Below the pieces are notes generated by a model. That model had not been told where the DNA came from. It did not search any database and saw nothing but the letters and a program-made list of their open reading frames with translations. A program made the translations under genes and the position numbers. This document shows, one piece after another, positions 2,921 to 8,769 of a stretch of DNA of 22,129 nucleotides (its first letter is position 1; the number at the start of each line of letters is the position of its first letter). Origin of the DNA: a virus; the IMG/VR virus record IMGVR_UViG_3300007276_000345, positions 1 through 22,129 of that record. One strand, 5' to 3'.

Positions 2921-3099
2921 ATTAGTTTTCCCGCCCCTCTTAAATTTTCAACAAAATTAGTTAGCTCCTGACGAGCCTCAAAGAAATCATTCTCTGCTCT
3001 AGGATTACCTTTTGTCCAACGCTCTTCTTGAAAGCGATCAACTTGTTGTCTTAAAAATTTTAATTGTGACAGTTGAAACGGCGTTAATTCATCATCCAT
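2917..3099 (-). CDS. hypothetical protein (60 aa)
   Basis: A short charged, helical protein of unknown function, with a heptad-like run LSQLKFLRQQVDRFQEE (residues about 10-26). A perfect AGGAGG (complement of 3106-3111) lies 6 bases before the ATG at 3099. It is first in a two-gene unit with the helix-turn-helix gene. A candidate promoter carrying the phage's CCCACTT box lies just upstream, at 3124-3153. Confidence 0.7.
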   Translation of the reverse strand: MDDELTPFQLSQLKFLRQQVDRFQEERWTKGNPRAENDFFEARQELTNFVENLRGAGKLI

Positions 3100-3123
3100 T
3101 TTATTCCTCCTATTAATATGGTA

Positions 3124-3153
3124 TTATTACCACATACTCCCACTTAGTGTCAA
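3124..3153 (-). promoter_or_regulatory. candidate leftward promoter with CCCACTT box
   Basis: On the minus strand a perfect TTGACA (-35) lies at 3153-3148, overlapping the stop codon of the primase gene. TAATAAT at 3129-3123 is 18-19 bases further on and is an imperfect -10 with a long spacer. The octamer AAGTGGGA (plus strand TCCCACTT, 3138-3145) sits inside the spacer, where a bound repressor would block polymerase. The same octamer occurs at the 10.7 kb divergent promoters. The promoter would serve the 60- and 97-residue genes. Confidence 0.55.
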
Positions 3154-5348
3154 ATGTTATCTCTACCTGTTTGACGCTCGTATTCGCCACGAGAGAATGG
3201 CCCGTCCATAGTTCCGAGCCATCTTTCTGATCCTCCTGTGGTCATTGTGTACTTGCGAATTAAACCAAGTCTACATGCCTCTGTTATTGCGTCTCCCATA
3301 GTTGATGATTTTCCTGCGTTCTTGAGATAGATAACGCATGGCTCACCAGAGTTTGATTCTTTCACAGCATTGTATAATCCATCGCTTCCACCATGAGCGA
3401 CTGCACGACATTCGTCGTCACGCATACGCACAAATACTGCAATATGTTGCAGGCGATCACGAATTGTGGAGGACATAGGTAATGAGCGAATATCCATAGA
3501 GCGATCTTCTAACAATCCTGTGTCTGGGTTACGAATGAAGTGCCTAATCTCACGATTAGCTGGCCCGTTTGATTTAACAACCGCACCATCGAATACAGCG
3601 TTCCTTGCGTAATCCAATTGCAGATCACGACACCGCTGACGCCCTGTGCCTTCATCTACAGACCAGACGGCAAACGCAGAGCGCACGCCATCAACAATAG
3701 CAGATGTACCGCGAATAAGATTACGCGCCTGTTCTGGAGTTGTGACGGGATCGTTATCTCTAATCTTTGCCATGTGGTGATTGACCATGACAGTAGCGCC
3801 TGTTTCGGTTGCCATCTGTGCTAGTAGGCTCATAAACGCGGCACCCGCCGCTGGATCAGCGTTTACATCTGCGTGAACAAACGATGCCATAGGATCAATT
3901 ATGATCAGCTTTAACGTGTTCATTTCTAGCATCTGATCGTATATGCGAGAGAACTCTTCGCCCATTAAGTACGAGTTATCAAATTTCTGCATGATAGGAA
4001 ATACACCGCCGAGGTTTGGCAATGGTAGAATACGCAGTTTATGCTCATAGCTTTCGCGGTATTTACTAGGATCAAGCCTAGAGATACGCCTGTGCATTTC
4101 GTCTTTGTCATCTTCCGCAGTGATTAGGATTACGTCACCATGCTCTGCAACTAGACCACCGAACGAGCTTTGCATTGATGCGCCAGATGCTACCTTCATG
4201 GCAAGATCGAGTGTCATCATGCCTTTACCACTATCACCCGCCGCTGCAAAAACACATGGCACGCCAAGAGGTATTGTATCGCCAATAAGAAACTTCTGTT
4301 CTGGAGCTTTACCAACAAAGTATTTGTCGATCAAAAGCGTATCATCTAGCAGAGATATTTGCTTTTTAATTTTGTTTTCGTTCGACTTAATCATCTTATC
4401 AATGTCAAAATCTTCGTCTACAGCGTCAGCCGCATCCCATTTATCTGACTTTGTTGATGGTATCTTTAACATCAAAGTTGATTTGACGCCTGCCTGCTTG
4501 GCTTGAGCTTCAACAATTTGTGCCAGTTTCTTCCCAGCTTCATCATTGTCAGGCCACAGTATAAGTTCTTTGCCTGATAGCGGAGTAAAGTCAAACTTGT
4601 AAGCTGTGTTCTCAGAGAGCATCCCTGCACCGCCAATAGTGCATGTTGCTACATATCCTAGCTCATTAAGAGCGTCAGCGCATTTTTCGCCTTCAACCCA
4701 TATAACTTTGTCAGCTTCTAAAATGTTCGGGATATTATACAATGGCCTTGGCTCTGGTATTCCTTGCCTACCATTCATGAACTGACGGAATTGTTTCTTA
4801 GGTTTGCCAGAGCTATCCCTAACAATTCCTCCAGTTGTATCCTGTTCGTAGTATTTTCTTACCGAAACTAGAACTACGCCATTGCTGTCAGTATATATGT
4901 ATTCGCTTTGAAATGGGGTATTCGGGCCGATCTGTACCTTTTGCTCTATAGGCACAACTTTGTCCTGTTCCGGTGTGGGTAAACTGTTCGGCTTAACAAT
5001 GTTTTCTGGAGGTGGAGCGTAGTCTTGTGTAACGTAATCTGAAAGTAAATCTACGGCTTCTTGTACGGACAGACCCCTTCCTTCTTTCAGAATTTTAAGA
5101 ATACCACCAACACCGTCACCTGACTCAAAGTCTTTGCCGTTAAGAAACCAAGGACTGCTTGGATCAATGTTAATTCGTAAAGATTTCCCAGCTTCTCCTC
5201 GCAACGATCCTATGAAGAATTCCTTTCCACGAACCACGCCTTCTGGGTATGTATCTATCAATATTTGCAACTGCACGCTTCTAGGAACATCCCTAGAAAT
5301 ACGGTCTGCAATGTCTTTTGAAGACTTGCCAAAACTTAAAACATTCAT
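3150..5348 (-). CDS. Toprim primase with RecA-like hexameric helicase domain
   Basis: The 732-residue protein joins a primase and a replicative helicase. Residues about 38-90 resemble the N-terminal primase segment (SLRIN...PWFLNGKD...GVGGILKIL) but lack the cysteines of a CHC2 zinc finger. A Toprim domain follows: WVEGEKCADAL (217-227, catalytic Glu219), then LWPDNDEAGK (264-273, metal-binding aspartates 267 and 269). From about 350 a RepA/AAA_25-type RecA fold starts, with Walker A AAGDSGKG (369-376), Walker B LIIIDP (481-486, Asp485) and a VNHH sensor (522-525). Walker A ends in GKG instead of the usual GKT/S, a variant I recall in this group. AGGGG lies 7 bases before ATG 5348. It would unwind and prime phage DNA; no polymerase is in the window. 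Confidence 0.9.
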   Translation of the reverse strand: MNVLSFGKSSKDIADRISRDVPRSVQLQILIDTYPEGVVRGKEFFIGSLRGEAGKSLRINIDPSSPWFLNGKDFESGDGVGGILKILKEGRGLSVQEAVDLLSDYVTQDYAPPPENIVKPNSLPTPEQDKVVPIEQKVQIGPNTPFQSEYIYTDSNGVVLVSVRKYYEQDTTGGIVRDSSGKPKKQFRQFMNGRQGIPEPRPLYNIPNILEADKVIWVEGEKCADALNELGYVATCTIGGAGMLSENTAYKFDFTPLSGKELILWPDNDEAGKKLAQIVEAQAKQAGVKSTLMLKIPSTKSDKWDAADAVDEDFDIDKMIKSNENKIKKQISLLDDTLLIDKYFVGKAPEQKFLIGDTIPLGVPCVFAAAGDSGKGMMTLDLAMKVASGASMQSSFGGLVAEHGDVILITAEDDKDEMHRRISRLDPSKYRESYEHKLRILPLPNLGGVFPIMQKFDNSYLMGEEFSRIYDQMLEMNTLKLIIIDPMASFVHADVNADPAAGAAFMSLLAQMATETGATVMVNHHMAKIRDNDPVTTPEQARNLIRGTSAIVDGVRSAFAVWSVDEGTGRQRCRDLQLDYARNAVFDGAVVKSNGPANREIRHFIRNPDTGLLEDRSMDIRSLPMSSTIRDRLQHIAVFVRMRDDECRAVAHGGSDGLYNAVKESNSGEPCVIYLKNAGKSSTMGDAITEACRLGLIRKYTMTTGGSERWLGTMDGPFSRGEYERQTGRDNI

Positions 5349-6673: not shown

Positions 6674-6991
6674 TCATACGTTGCCGCCTTGGAACTTAAC
6701 GACAGGCTCTGGTTCTGTCTTATGTGCCGATAGCTCCCCAGCGCAGGCTGAATATCCTGCAAGATCCAGATAATTCTCTGCGTTTTTTGGGTTGGATTTT
6801 TGACGTGCTATTTTTAACAGGCACATCATAATTGCAACGTCAGACGGATGGACGTGACGATCTAAGTAAATGCCCCACAGTTCTCCAATAGTGGTGAGAT
6901 TATCCTCCATATCTCCATGCTCTGATGCTCGGTCAACATTTACCAATTGCTTGGCAGTATCTAAAATTTCTGTGCGTGTGTATTTAGTCAT
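6674..6991 (-). CDS. DUF6378-like phage protein (105 aa)
   Basis: The pattern ILDTAKQLV..DRASEHGD...NLTTIGELWGIYL.....PSDVAIMMCLLKIARQKSNP...NYLDLAGYSAC (residues about 9-84) is a common phage all-helical family that I remember as DUF6378. The usual features are the R..xxGD..NF.. start, KIAR in the middle and a D.AGY near the end. Its biochemical role is unknown. The fold resembles all-alpha NTP pyrophosphatases (MazG/dUTPase-like), but the acidic metal-binding clusters of those enzymes are not obvious here, so I do not call it one. GGGAG is 6 bases before ATG 6991, and the start overlaps the end of the helicase gene by 8 bases. Confidence 0.75.
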   Translation of the reverse strand: MTKYTRTEILDTAKQLVNVDRASEHGDMEDNLTTIGELWGIYLDRHVHPSDVAIMMCLLKIARQKSNPKNAENYLDLAGYSACAGELSAHKTEPEPVVKFQGGNV

Positions 6992-8672
6992 TTGCTTCTC
7001 CCTTTATTTTCTTTGCTTGTTTCATAATTAAATCGTCAATTGCTTCTCTGTTCCAGTAATAACTTAAACTGCAAGTGGCTTTGTACTTTGTCCAAGAGAA
7101 ATCCATCATGTTAATTTGTACGCCTTTACTCGCCAAATGTTGCTTTTGAATTTCTGACGCTGGCTGATTTAACCAACGCTTAGTTTTGTTTGCTGCACTG
7201 CTGTCCTCTATCTCACGAAGAAAATCGTCTCCAGCGGCCATTGCTTGTACCTTACTGCCAATGGAAACTAATCTAACTTTTTTATTCTTAGCTTTTACCA
7301 TAGCTATCCAGTATTCTCCAACCTGACCAACTAATGTAAATCCACTAAATCCTGTAGCCATCATTGCGTTTCCCTGACCAAATGGGTCAATCCACATAAA
7401 CGGAGACATCTTCATAAGATCATACTCAGTCATAACGAATGTGTCTAATTCTTCCTTAACCCTCTTGCGGAACTCATGTTCGCAAATTGGGCAGATACGA
7501 ATACTAGACGGAACTTCGCTTCCACAATCCGGGCATATTTTGGTAGGAGCTTCGCCAGCTTCTGACTTTTCCTTACCGTCTAGGTTAGCTGTTTCGTCTA
7601 ACCCACCATGCGTGATTATTGACGTACCAAAGTCCATAACAACGCAATCGGTCTTAATAATGTTTGGGTATAGCTCAGGGTCAAGAATGCGTAGTCCGCG
7701 CCCAATCATCTGAACCATTGTTCCCTTCTGGGAGCATGGCCTTGTTAGGATTATGCAAGACACAGGTGGCGCATCAAAACCTTCAGTTAGGACTGCCACG
7801 TTTACGATAACTTGCAGATCACCAAACTCAAGATCGTGAAGCATATCCGCACGCTCTATTTTGTCTGTCTCACCCGTCAGATAGTTAGCTCTAACGCCGC
7901 CCATAATAAAAGCTGCGCAAACGTGTTCTGCGTGCGCTACAGTAGAACAAAACACAACGGTCTTGCGATCCCCTGCCTTTTCCTTCCACTCAGTAACAAT
8001 GCGATCATTAATGACCTGACGATCCATGATGGCCGCGACTTCTTCCATGTCGTATTCTTTGCCGCGCTTTGTGACTTTATCGAGTTGTTCCCCTACGCCC
8101 AGATCAATGACGTAGCTTTTAGGACGTACTAAGAAGCCTTCGCGGATCAGAGTAGCCAAATCAATTTGATGTGCGCAGTTGTTGAAAATACCGCTTAGAC
8201 CTTTACCATCGCCTCTGTTTGGCGTTGCGGTAAATCCTACGATCTCAGCCTTGTCGTTGTCTTTCAGAACAGCGTTGATTACCTTTGTGTATGTAGGTGC
8301 CGCCGCATGGTGTCCTTCGTCAATCACAACCATATCGAACTTAGGGCGATCTCGTAGGTTCTTGTCACGCGACATGGTTTGAATCATTGAGAATACAGCT
8401 TCGCCATCCCAATGTTTAACTGTTCCGTTAACAATGCTGGTTGTGATGTACGGGTTTACTTTTTGAAACTTATCTTTGTTTTGAGCAACCAGTTCATCAC
8501 GATGCTGTATGATTAGAACACGCTTGCCTTCTTCGTGGCGTTTGCCAACTAAAGCAGAAAGCATGATTGTTTTGCCAGCGCCCGTAGGAGCTACGACTAA
8601 TGTGTTGCTGTGTTTGTCTAACGCATTACAGGCGTCAGATACAGCTACCTCTTGGTAGGGACGTAATAACAT
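6984..8672 (-). CDS. RadD-like superfamily 2 DEAH-type helicase with zinc ribbon
   Basis: All SF2 helicase motifs are visible in this 562-residue protein: RPYQ (Q-motif-like, 4-7), Walker A APTGAGKT (28-35), QHRDEL (56-61), DEGH (118-121), TATP (148-151), TEGFDAP (296-302) and QMIGRGLR (321-328). A zinc ribbon follows, with cysteines 380, 383, 394 and 397 (CPDC...CPIC). The helicase core plus following zinc ribbon is the arrangement of RadD (YejH), which helps recombination and branch processing. The last 150 residues are not recognised. ATG 8672 has only a weak AGG. An unusual structured RNA segment (8703-8769) lies in the leader between this gene and the SSB gene and may control it. Confidence 0.9.
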   Translation of the reverse strand: MLLRPYQEVAVSDACNALDKHSNTLVVAPTGAGKTIMLSALVGKRHEEGKRVLIIQHRDELVAQNKDKFQKVNPYITTSIVNGTVKHWDGEAVFSMIQTMSRDKNLRDRPKFDMVVIDEGHHAAAPTYTKVINAVLKDNDKAEIVGFTATPNRGDGKGLSGIFNNCAHQIDLATLIREGFLVRPKSYVIDLGVGEQLDKVTKRGKEYDMEEVAAIMDRQVINDRIVTEWKEKAGDRKTVVFCSTVAHAEHVCAAFIMGGVRANYLTGETDKIERADMLHDLEFGDLQVIVNVAVLTEGFDAPPVSCIILTRPCSQKGTMVQMIGRGLRILDPELYPNIIKTDCVVMDFGTSIITHGGLDETANLDGKEKSEAGEAPTKICPDCGSEVPSSIRICPICEHEFRKRVKEELDTFVMTEYDLMKMSPFMWIDPFGQGNAMMATGFSGFTLVGQVGEYWIAMVKAKNKKVRLVSIGSKVQAMAAGDDFLREIEDSSAANKTKRWLNQPASEIQKQHLASKGVQINMMDFSWTKYKATCSLSYYWNREAIDDLIMKQAKKIKGEAND

Positions 8673-8702
8673 AATAAAACCTATTTGCTAGAATAGTAAG
8701 TT

Positions 8703-8737
8703 GGGGGGTTCGCGGCCCAAGGCCCCCCTATCCTTGG
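8703..8737 (-). promoter_or_regulatory. predicted H-type RNA pseudoknot upstream of helicase gene
   Basis: Read on the minus strand the order is CCAAGG, ATA, GGGGGG, CCTTGG, GCCGCGAA, CCCCCC. CCAAGG (8737-8732) pairs with CCTTGG (8722-8717), and GGGGGG (8728-8723) pairs with CCCCCC (8708-8703). The two 6-bp stems interlock and stack with no bases between them. A 3-base loop crosses the deep groove and an 8-base loop the shallow groove, which are the proportions of classic H-type pseudoknots. It ends 30 bases before the helicase start codon. It was found by eye and has not been folded. Confidence 0.55.
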
Positions 8738-8769
8738 TCTAGCAGGCGCAGAATGGCCCTGCCGCTAGA
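8738..8769 (-). promoter_or_regulatory. hairpin directly after the SSB stop codon
   Basis: TCTAGC at 8738-8743 pairs with GCTAGA at 8764-8769. GGC (8745-8747) with GCC (8761-8763) extends the stem past a single bulged A. It begins at the base next to the stop codon of the SSB gene and abuts the pseudoknot, so the whole of 8703-8769 is structured. There is no U-tract, so it is not an intrinsic terminator. It may protect the 3' end of the SSB message or organise the pseudoknot. Confidence 0.55.

Follow-up and report, generated by a model that had tools for sequence, protein, structure and literature searches.

What kind of RNA, if any, lies in the short interval between a gene for a single-stranded DNA-binding protein (ssb) and a helicase gene of an uncultured phage, and to which of the two genes does it belong? 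The question is raised by the IMG/VR virus contig IMGVR_UViG_3300007276_000345, whose 22,129 bases form the window analysed here. An earlier note on this DNA had described two neighbouring structures on the minus strand, an H-type pseudoknot and a bulged hairpin, had placed them in the leader of the helicase gene, and had proposed that SSB or a ligand might control helicase expression through them.

Results

A single knotted RNA behind ssb

Read directly, the minus strand from 8769 to 8703 is TCTAGCGGCAGGGCCATTCTGCGCCTGCTAGA CCAAGG ATA GGGGGG CCTTGG GCCGCGAA CCCCCC and stands immediately 3' of the stop of a 207-aa ORF. Both of the structures described earlier are there. The 9-bp bulged hairpin (minus strand 8769-8738, TCTAG[CGG]CAGG...CCTG-CTAGA) has its 5' edge against the ssb stop codon (TAA, 8772-8770), as had been claimed, and adjoins a pseudoknot with the order CCAAGG-ATA-GGGGGG-CCTTGG-GCCGCGAA-CCCCCC (8737-8703) and loops of 3, 0 and 8 nt. 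What does not hold is their separation into two neighbours: the hairpin bulge, GCGGC (8765-8761), pairs with GCCGC (8716-8712) of the 8-nt loop 3 of the pseudoknot, so that the two join in a three-way junction that contains two crossing helices. The region is a single cis-encoded RNA of about 67 nt, larger than had been supposed. Comparison with relatives shows the predicted architecture to be a three-way junction of stems A, I and B locked by the crossing helices C, in which the loop of hairpin B pairs with the tail, and O, in which the 5' end pairs with the junction strand (Table 1). The only invariant unpaired positions, A 8760 and G 8743, both lie in the junction, and the loop of hairpin I shows no conservation. 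The R1 covariance model matches the window once only (8773-8696, 93.2 bits); E-values from the covariance models are rough.

Table 1. Features of the ssb-helicase interval, with pairing in the 74-row alignment and stem variants among relatives
Feature	Position	Strand	Description or partner	Evidence	Variants
ssb-like gene, 207 aa	8770..9393	-	predicted OB fold, disordered Q/P-rich tail, conserved C-terminal P-x-W-A		
Whole structured RNA	8703..8769	-	5'-3' order O5 A5 I5 I3 O3 B5 C5 B3 A3 C3	covariation	
O5 (UCUA)	8766..8769	-	8741-8738; crosses A	94.4% of cells paired; both-sided change at 2 pairs	CTAACG/CGTTAG (L431), TTTGGCG/CGTCAAA (L439), TAGCA/TGCTA (L312), CTAGC/GCTAG, TAACG/CGTTA
O3 (UAGA)	8738..8741	-	O5	as O5	
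A5 (GCGGC)	8761..8765	-	GCCGC, 8716-8712	92.8% paired; both-sided change at 4/5 pairs	GCGGC/GCCGC, GTGGC/GCCAC, GCGAC/GTCGC, GCCTC/GAGGC, GCGTC/GACGC, CGC/GCG
Unpaired A	8760	-	between A5 and I5	invariant, 74/74 sequences	
Hairpin I	8745..8758	-	GGC 8758-8756 / GCC 8747-8745	99.1% paired; both-sided change at 3/3 pairs	
Unpaired G	8743	-	before O3	invariant, 74/74 sequences	
B5 (CCAAGG)	8732..8737	-	8722-8717; 5' side of stem 1 in the earlier reading	98.1% paired; both-sided change at 6/6 pairs	CCAAGG/CCTTGG, CACGG/CCGTG, CTCGC/GCGAG, CCTCTG/CAGAGG, CTATGT/ACATAG, GTCGGT/ACCGAT, ACTCGT/ACGAGT, AGTCGT/ACGACT
C5 (GGGGGG)	8723..8728	-	8708-8703; 5' side of stem 2 in the earlier reading	99.3% paired; both-sided change at 5/6 pairs	GGGGGG/CCCCCC, GGGGGAG/CTCCCCC, GGGTAGC/GCTACCC, GGGCGGC/GCCGCCC, GGGGGAC/GTCCCCC, GAGGAGG/CCTCCTC
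B3 (CCUUGG)	8717..8722	-	B5	as B5	
A3 (GCCGC)	8712..8716	-	A5	as A5	
C3 (CCCCCC)	8703..8708	-	C5	as C5	
Tail	8673..8702	-	third CTAG (UCUAGC) and AGG, Shine-Dalgarno-like site of helicase gene	clade-specific, outside universal core	
Helicase gene	6984..8672	-	SF2, RadD/ResIII-type	phrog_16 DNA helicase, E 4e-97; ResIII and Helicase_C	

Compensatory change in all stems

Relatives were collected by protein and pattern scans of IMG/VR and GTDB genomes, which gave several hundred loci, all on metagenomic contigs; per-locus counts include overlapping loci from the same contigs, and the 172 non-redundant flank sets represent distinct sequences, not independent lineages. The same fold, written in very different letters, recurs 3' of ssb across these relatives. 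With 42 sequences aligned by MAFFT, pairing is kept in 94.5% of cells and both-sided changes number 120, against 24 in shuffles. In an alignment of 74 rows, made with a covariance model of stems A, I and B only, 96.8% of cells are paired and 239 are both-sided, compared with 50 in shuffles and 21-52 for slid partners; stems C and O, absent from the fitted model, still pair in 99.3% and 94.4% of cells, and stem C, after correction of its register, contains 440 Watson-Crick and 2 GU pairs in 444 cells. Because kinship inflates counts of both-sided changes, the changes were placed on a tree of the ssb protein. Over its 50 tips there are 66 both-sided changes from one standard pair to another (B 31, C 16, A 9, I 8, O 2), as opposed to 0-3 for slid partners. 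The two stems that had been proposed originally, B and C, are thus among the best-supported helices, and both keep pairing by compensatory change, as interlocked helices of an H-type pseudoknot, rather than breaking on one side. Sequence comparison in this way shows the RNA to be under selection as a structure.

A pseudoknot-aware descriptor of the whole motif gives 310 matches at a score of at least 27 in 2.9 Mb of relatives and 1 in a Markov shuffle, and 189 and 0, respectively, at a score of at least 28; the relatives were scanned on both strands with redundant loci and the shuffle on one strand, and the figures are counts, not a probability, because the loci were picked as relatives and overlap. 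Nested-only folding shows no excess stability (MFE -30.8 kcal/mol, z = 0.10 against shuffles) because pseudoknots fall outside that model.

The conserved structure might reside in single-stranded DNA, as an origin, priming or annealing site, instead of in RNA; its location in a replication and recombination module and the palindromic nature of the CTAG copies would suit such a role. However, departures from Watson-Crick pairing in stems B, I and C are GU in 18 cases and AC in 3, as expected for RNA of the transcribed strand, though the balance over all stems, 26 to 18, is indecisive; the element lies in sense orientation behind ssb without exception. We consider a DNA element highly improbable.

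The upstream protein and the changing downstream gene

The product of the upstream gene belongs to phrog_2300, a group of function not known, and had no Pfam match. Its AlphaFold2 model (mean pLDDT 80.6) predicts an OB-type core and a disordered tail, the conserved P-x-W-A tip being derived from the family alignment, and the best Foldseek match of the model is PrgE of pCF10 (E 4e-5, probability 1.0), an atypical OB-fold ssDNA-binding protein (PMC11137577). The gene adjoins that of a Sak4-like annealing protein. Predicted fold and neighbours make SSB, the name given to this protein from the start, a reasonable one.

The RNA starts 0-18 nt behind the ssb stop in 168 of the 172 flank sets, most often at 0-2 nt, and in one relative (L312) the UAG stop codon itself lies within O5. 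The next gene encodes a helicase in 130 flank sets, a PD-(D/E)XK nuclease (PF24579) in 17 and various other products in the rest; at least eight kinds of following gene occur, these two and at least six others, which include ORFs for a 251-aa protein (phrog_4652), cell-wall-hydrolase-like, HTH-like, MIESIMC-type and MDDILFAN-type proteins, and small ORFs. Since the following gene varies while the RNA stays 3' of ssb, the RNA belongs to ssb or to the intercistronic site, and its assignment to the helicase gene as a leader was rejected. The same conclusion is reached from one clade in which the RNA sits inside the start of a different ORF, of about 95 aa, on the plus strand (L400:3139-3420, L419:3112-3426, L439:3118-3411). 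This ORF has a weak HTH match, and L400 and L439 read the RNA part in different frames, so it is the RNA, not a peptide, that is conserved. No conserved slippery site or downstream extension was seen by eye, and a frameshift or readthrough element behind the stop was rejected; a promoter and terminator scan found nothing above chance at the element.

The interval between ssb and helicase is an insertion hot spot on either side of the RNA. Between ssb and the RNA, L405 carries a further, full ORF (around 3100-3968) and L409 a short one (around 3090-3470). Between the RNA and the helicase gene, in L009, L017, L096, L070 and others, nearly identical flanks occur with or without a gene for a 138-139-aa PD-(D/E)XK phage endonuclease (PF24579, E 8e-40), a pattern like that of a free-standing mobile endonuclease. 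Elsewhere in the window, the plus strand encodes a cell-wall hydrolase (758-1180, PF07486), with an N-terminus similar to that of ORFs after the RNA in L410 and L414, and a protein very rich in Q, P and M with repeated QQPMQQP units (1462-2637).

Distribution and novelty of the family

The carriers are a large clade of uncultured marine phages, with one copy of the element per record in records of 32-59 kb. Under strict filters, no copy was found in 292 other genomes belonging to the same order as the metagenome-assembled genome (MAG) that carries L311, and a host-chromosomal origin was rejected on that count. On the ssb protein tree the RNA is present in 54 rows and missing from one nested clade of eight; the phages WO, AcaML1 and Megaira phage, with distantly homologous ssb genes, have no such element. 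One origin in the clade followed by one loss would be the simplest reading, and the element is not essential, because one clade has lost it. In RNA-less members (L393, L401, L403, L413) an ORF similar to the 95-aa type begins directly behind ssb.

Named phages showed no DNA similarity to the sequence. Rfam gave no match at gathering thresholds and only chance-level matches at permissive ones, and no known riboswitch aptamer class was matched in that search. The fold fits no catalogued RNA family and constitutes a well-supported family new to RNA libraries, in agreement with the first impression that an element of this kind had not been described.

Discussion

A probable role of the RNA is to set for how long, or at what level, this part of the message is used. 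Its stems and topology are kept while loops and stem letters are free, a pattern that suits a mechanical or architectural fold better than a metabolite pocket. A ligand-binding riboswitch or a self-cleaving ribozyme would find common design features here, namely a three-way junction with pseudoknots and two invariant junction nucleotides, but no Rfam family was matched even at permissive thresholds, no pocket-sized set of unpaired bases is conserved, the following genes share no pathway, and the strand order is unlike that of the established HDV-like fold. Such a function appears very unlikely.

Intercistronic elements that stabilize mRNA, such as the Rhodobacter puf hairpins and REP elements, are simple hairpins. 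Like them, the phage RNA is a stable structure that directly follows a gene within a polycistronic message; unlike them, it has a specific knotted topology, conserved across ssb proteins of about 40% identity. In T4, the 5' leader of gene 32 contains a simple H-type pseudoknot, on which gp32 acts in its own message. As in T4, a pseudoknotted RNA is tied to the gene of a phage ssDNA-binding protein, which makes T4-like control by SSB possible: the OB-fold protein could nucleate on the knot and spread along the mRNA, repressing ssb, the next gene or both. The persistent linkage to ssb and the conserved C-terminal tip of the putative OB-fold SSB speak for autogenous control of this sort. Unlike the T4 operator, however, the element is a three-way junction with two crossing helices and is placed 3' of ssb, outside its leader; its loops are not conserved and no conserved single-stranded landing stretch adjoins it; and ssb persists without the RNA in the clade that lost it and, as a distant homologue, in WO, AcaML1 and Megaira phage. 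We regard autogenous control as conceivable but rather unlikely.

The proximity to the ssb stop also suggests a switch in translational coupling, in which a ribosome at the stop would cover O5 and A5, freeing O3 (GCUAGA) to pair with the third CUAG near the next Shine-Dalgarno site and so change initiation. The short distance of 0-2 nt between stop and O5 in most members, and the stop within O5 in L312, fit this idea, and the nested MFE of the window does pair O3 with the third CTAG of the tail. The tail (8673-8702) is a possible alternative partner of GCUAGA (8743-8738) and CCU. Of 104 distinct sequences, 76 have a third CTAG within 35 nt; all of them are among the 93 in which O3 is GCTAGA, and none among the other 11. 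Yet it is absent from the L312, L431, L400/L419/L439 and L405-L420 groups and lost in L126, so that a universal switch was rejected, and no compensatory change was seen between O3 and the third copy; a coupling switch seems decidedly unlikely. The clade of the window also keeps a small CTATT/AATAG hairpin in the equivalents of 8673-8702, which is longer in L126 (CTATTTT/AAAATAG).

Our tentative preference, held with somewhat less than even confidence, is that a mechanically stable knot limits mRNA decay at the ssb boundary. Sequence comparison shows the structure of the element, its covariation, its position and its lineage, whereas transcription within the operon and every functional step are inferred. 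The RNA would be transcribed as a boundary between ssb and the next gene of the replication operon, whichever that is. It would work mechanically: compact, rich in GC and sited where translating ribosomes stop, the knot would block processive ribonucleases, either 5'-3' enzymes of the RNase J type or 3'-5' ones. The pieces of the polycistronic message on either side could then decay independently, and expression of ssb could be uncoupled from that of its neighbours. A 5'-3' block that shields the downstream piece would be favoured by the location of the 5' end within the junction, and shielding of ssb by the tie to that gene. The position behind ssb (0-18 nt, 168/172), ahead of at least eight kinds of following gene, and the single copy per record count in favour of a decay barrier. 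Against it, in L400, L419 and L439 ribosomes would unfold the element, which is part of a translated ORF there; one clade has lost it; the first pseudoknot is wired unlike that of flaviviral exonuclease-resistant RNA (xrRNA); and an ordinary GC hairpin would be enough to stop 3'-5' nucleases, which leaves so elaborate a fold unexplained there.

Among published folds, the closest is the class-1 xrRNA of flaviviruses, a cofactor-independent block to RNase J1 and Xrn1 alike (PMC5760640). Both have a three-way junction closed by a stem of about 5 bp. In each, one of the two hairpins has a free loop, the loop of the other pairs with tail sequence immediately 3' of the closing stem (PK2), and the 5' end is paired into the junction; in the phage family the corresponding junction and PK2 helices, A, I, B and C, covary. 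In ZIKV xrRNA1, however, the partner of the 5' end is the strand joining P3 to P1 (U2G3:C43/44), so that PK2 is crossed (PMC7603331), whereas the phage 5' end has its partner, O3, between I and B in 74/74 sequences, does not cross C and pairs over a longer stretch of 4-6 bp. A strand order identical to that of the flaviviral RNA was rejected after comparison with the ZIKV pair list (PMC7603331), and because its first pseudoknot differs we do not file the phage RNA as an xrRNA. It also differs in lacking any sequence or Rfam match and in its setting, intercistronic in a DNA phage.

In each of the two carrier MAGs, the putative hosts from binning, there are full-length RNase J-family beta-CASP proteins, which score 370-391 bits, slightly below the curated cut-off; TIGR00649 also matches in E. 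coli and archaea, and the search therefore shows only that a beta-CASP enzyme is present. The more specific proposal that a DNA phage independently evolved a knotted RNA that mechanically stops the host 5'-3' exoribonuclease (RNase J) in its replication operon is, in our judgement, unlikely. No report of a phage exonuclease-blocking RNA was found in the open-licence literature, a scope that makes this weak evidence. If the proposal were true, the bacterial world would have its first natural RNA of this design that blocks an exonuclease, one with a wiring of its own.

The RNA family is carried by abundant uncultured marine phages, and its natural variants already provide a mutational series in which compensation is full and the element has been lost cleanly once. 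They make it testable whether phages use knotted RNAs to steer mRNA decay, or whether an SSB may regulate its operon through a 3' element.
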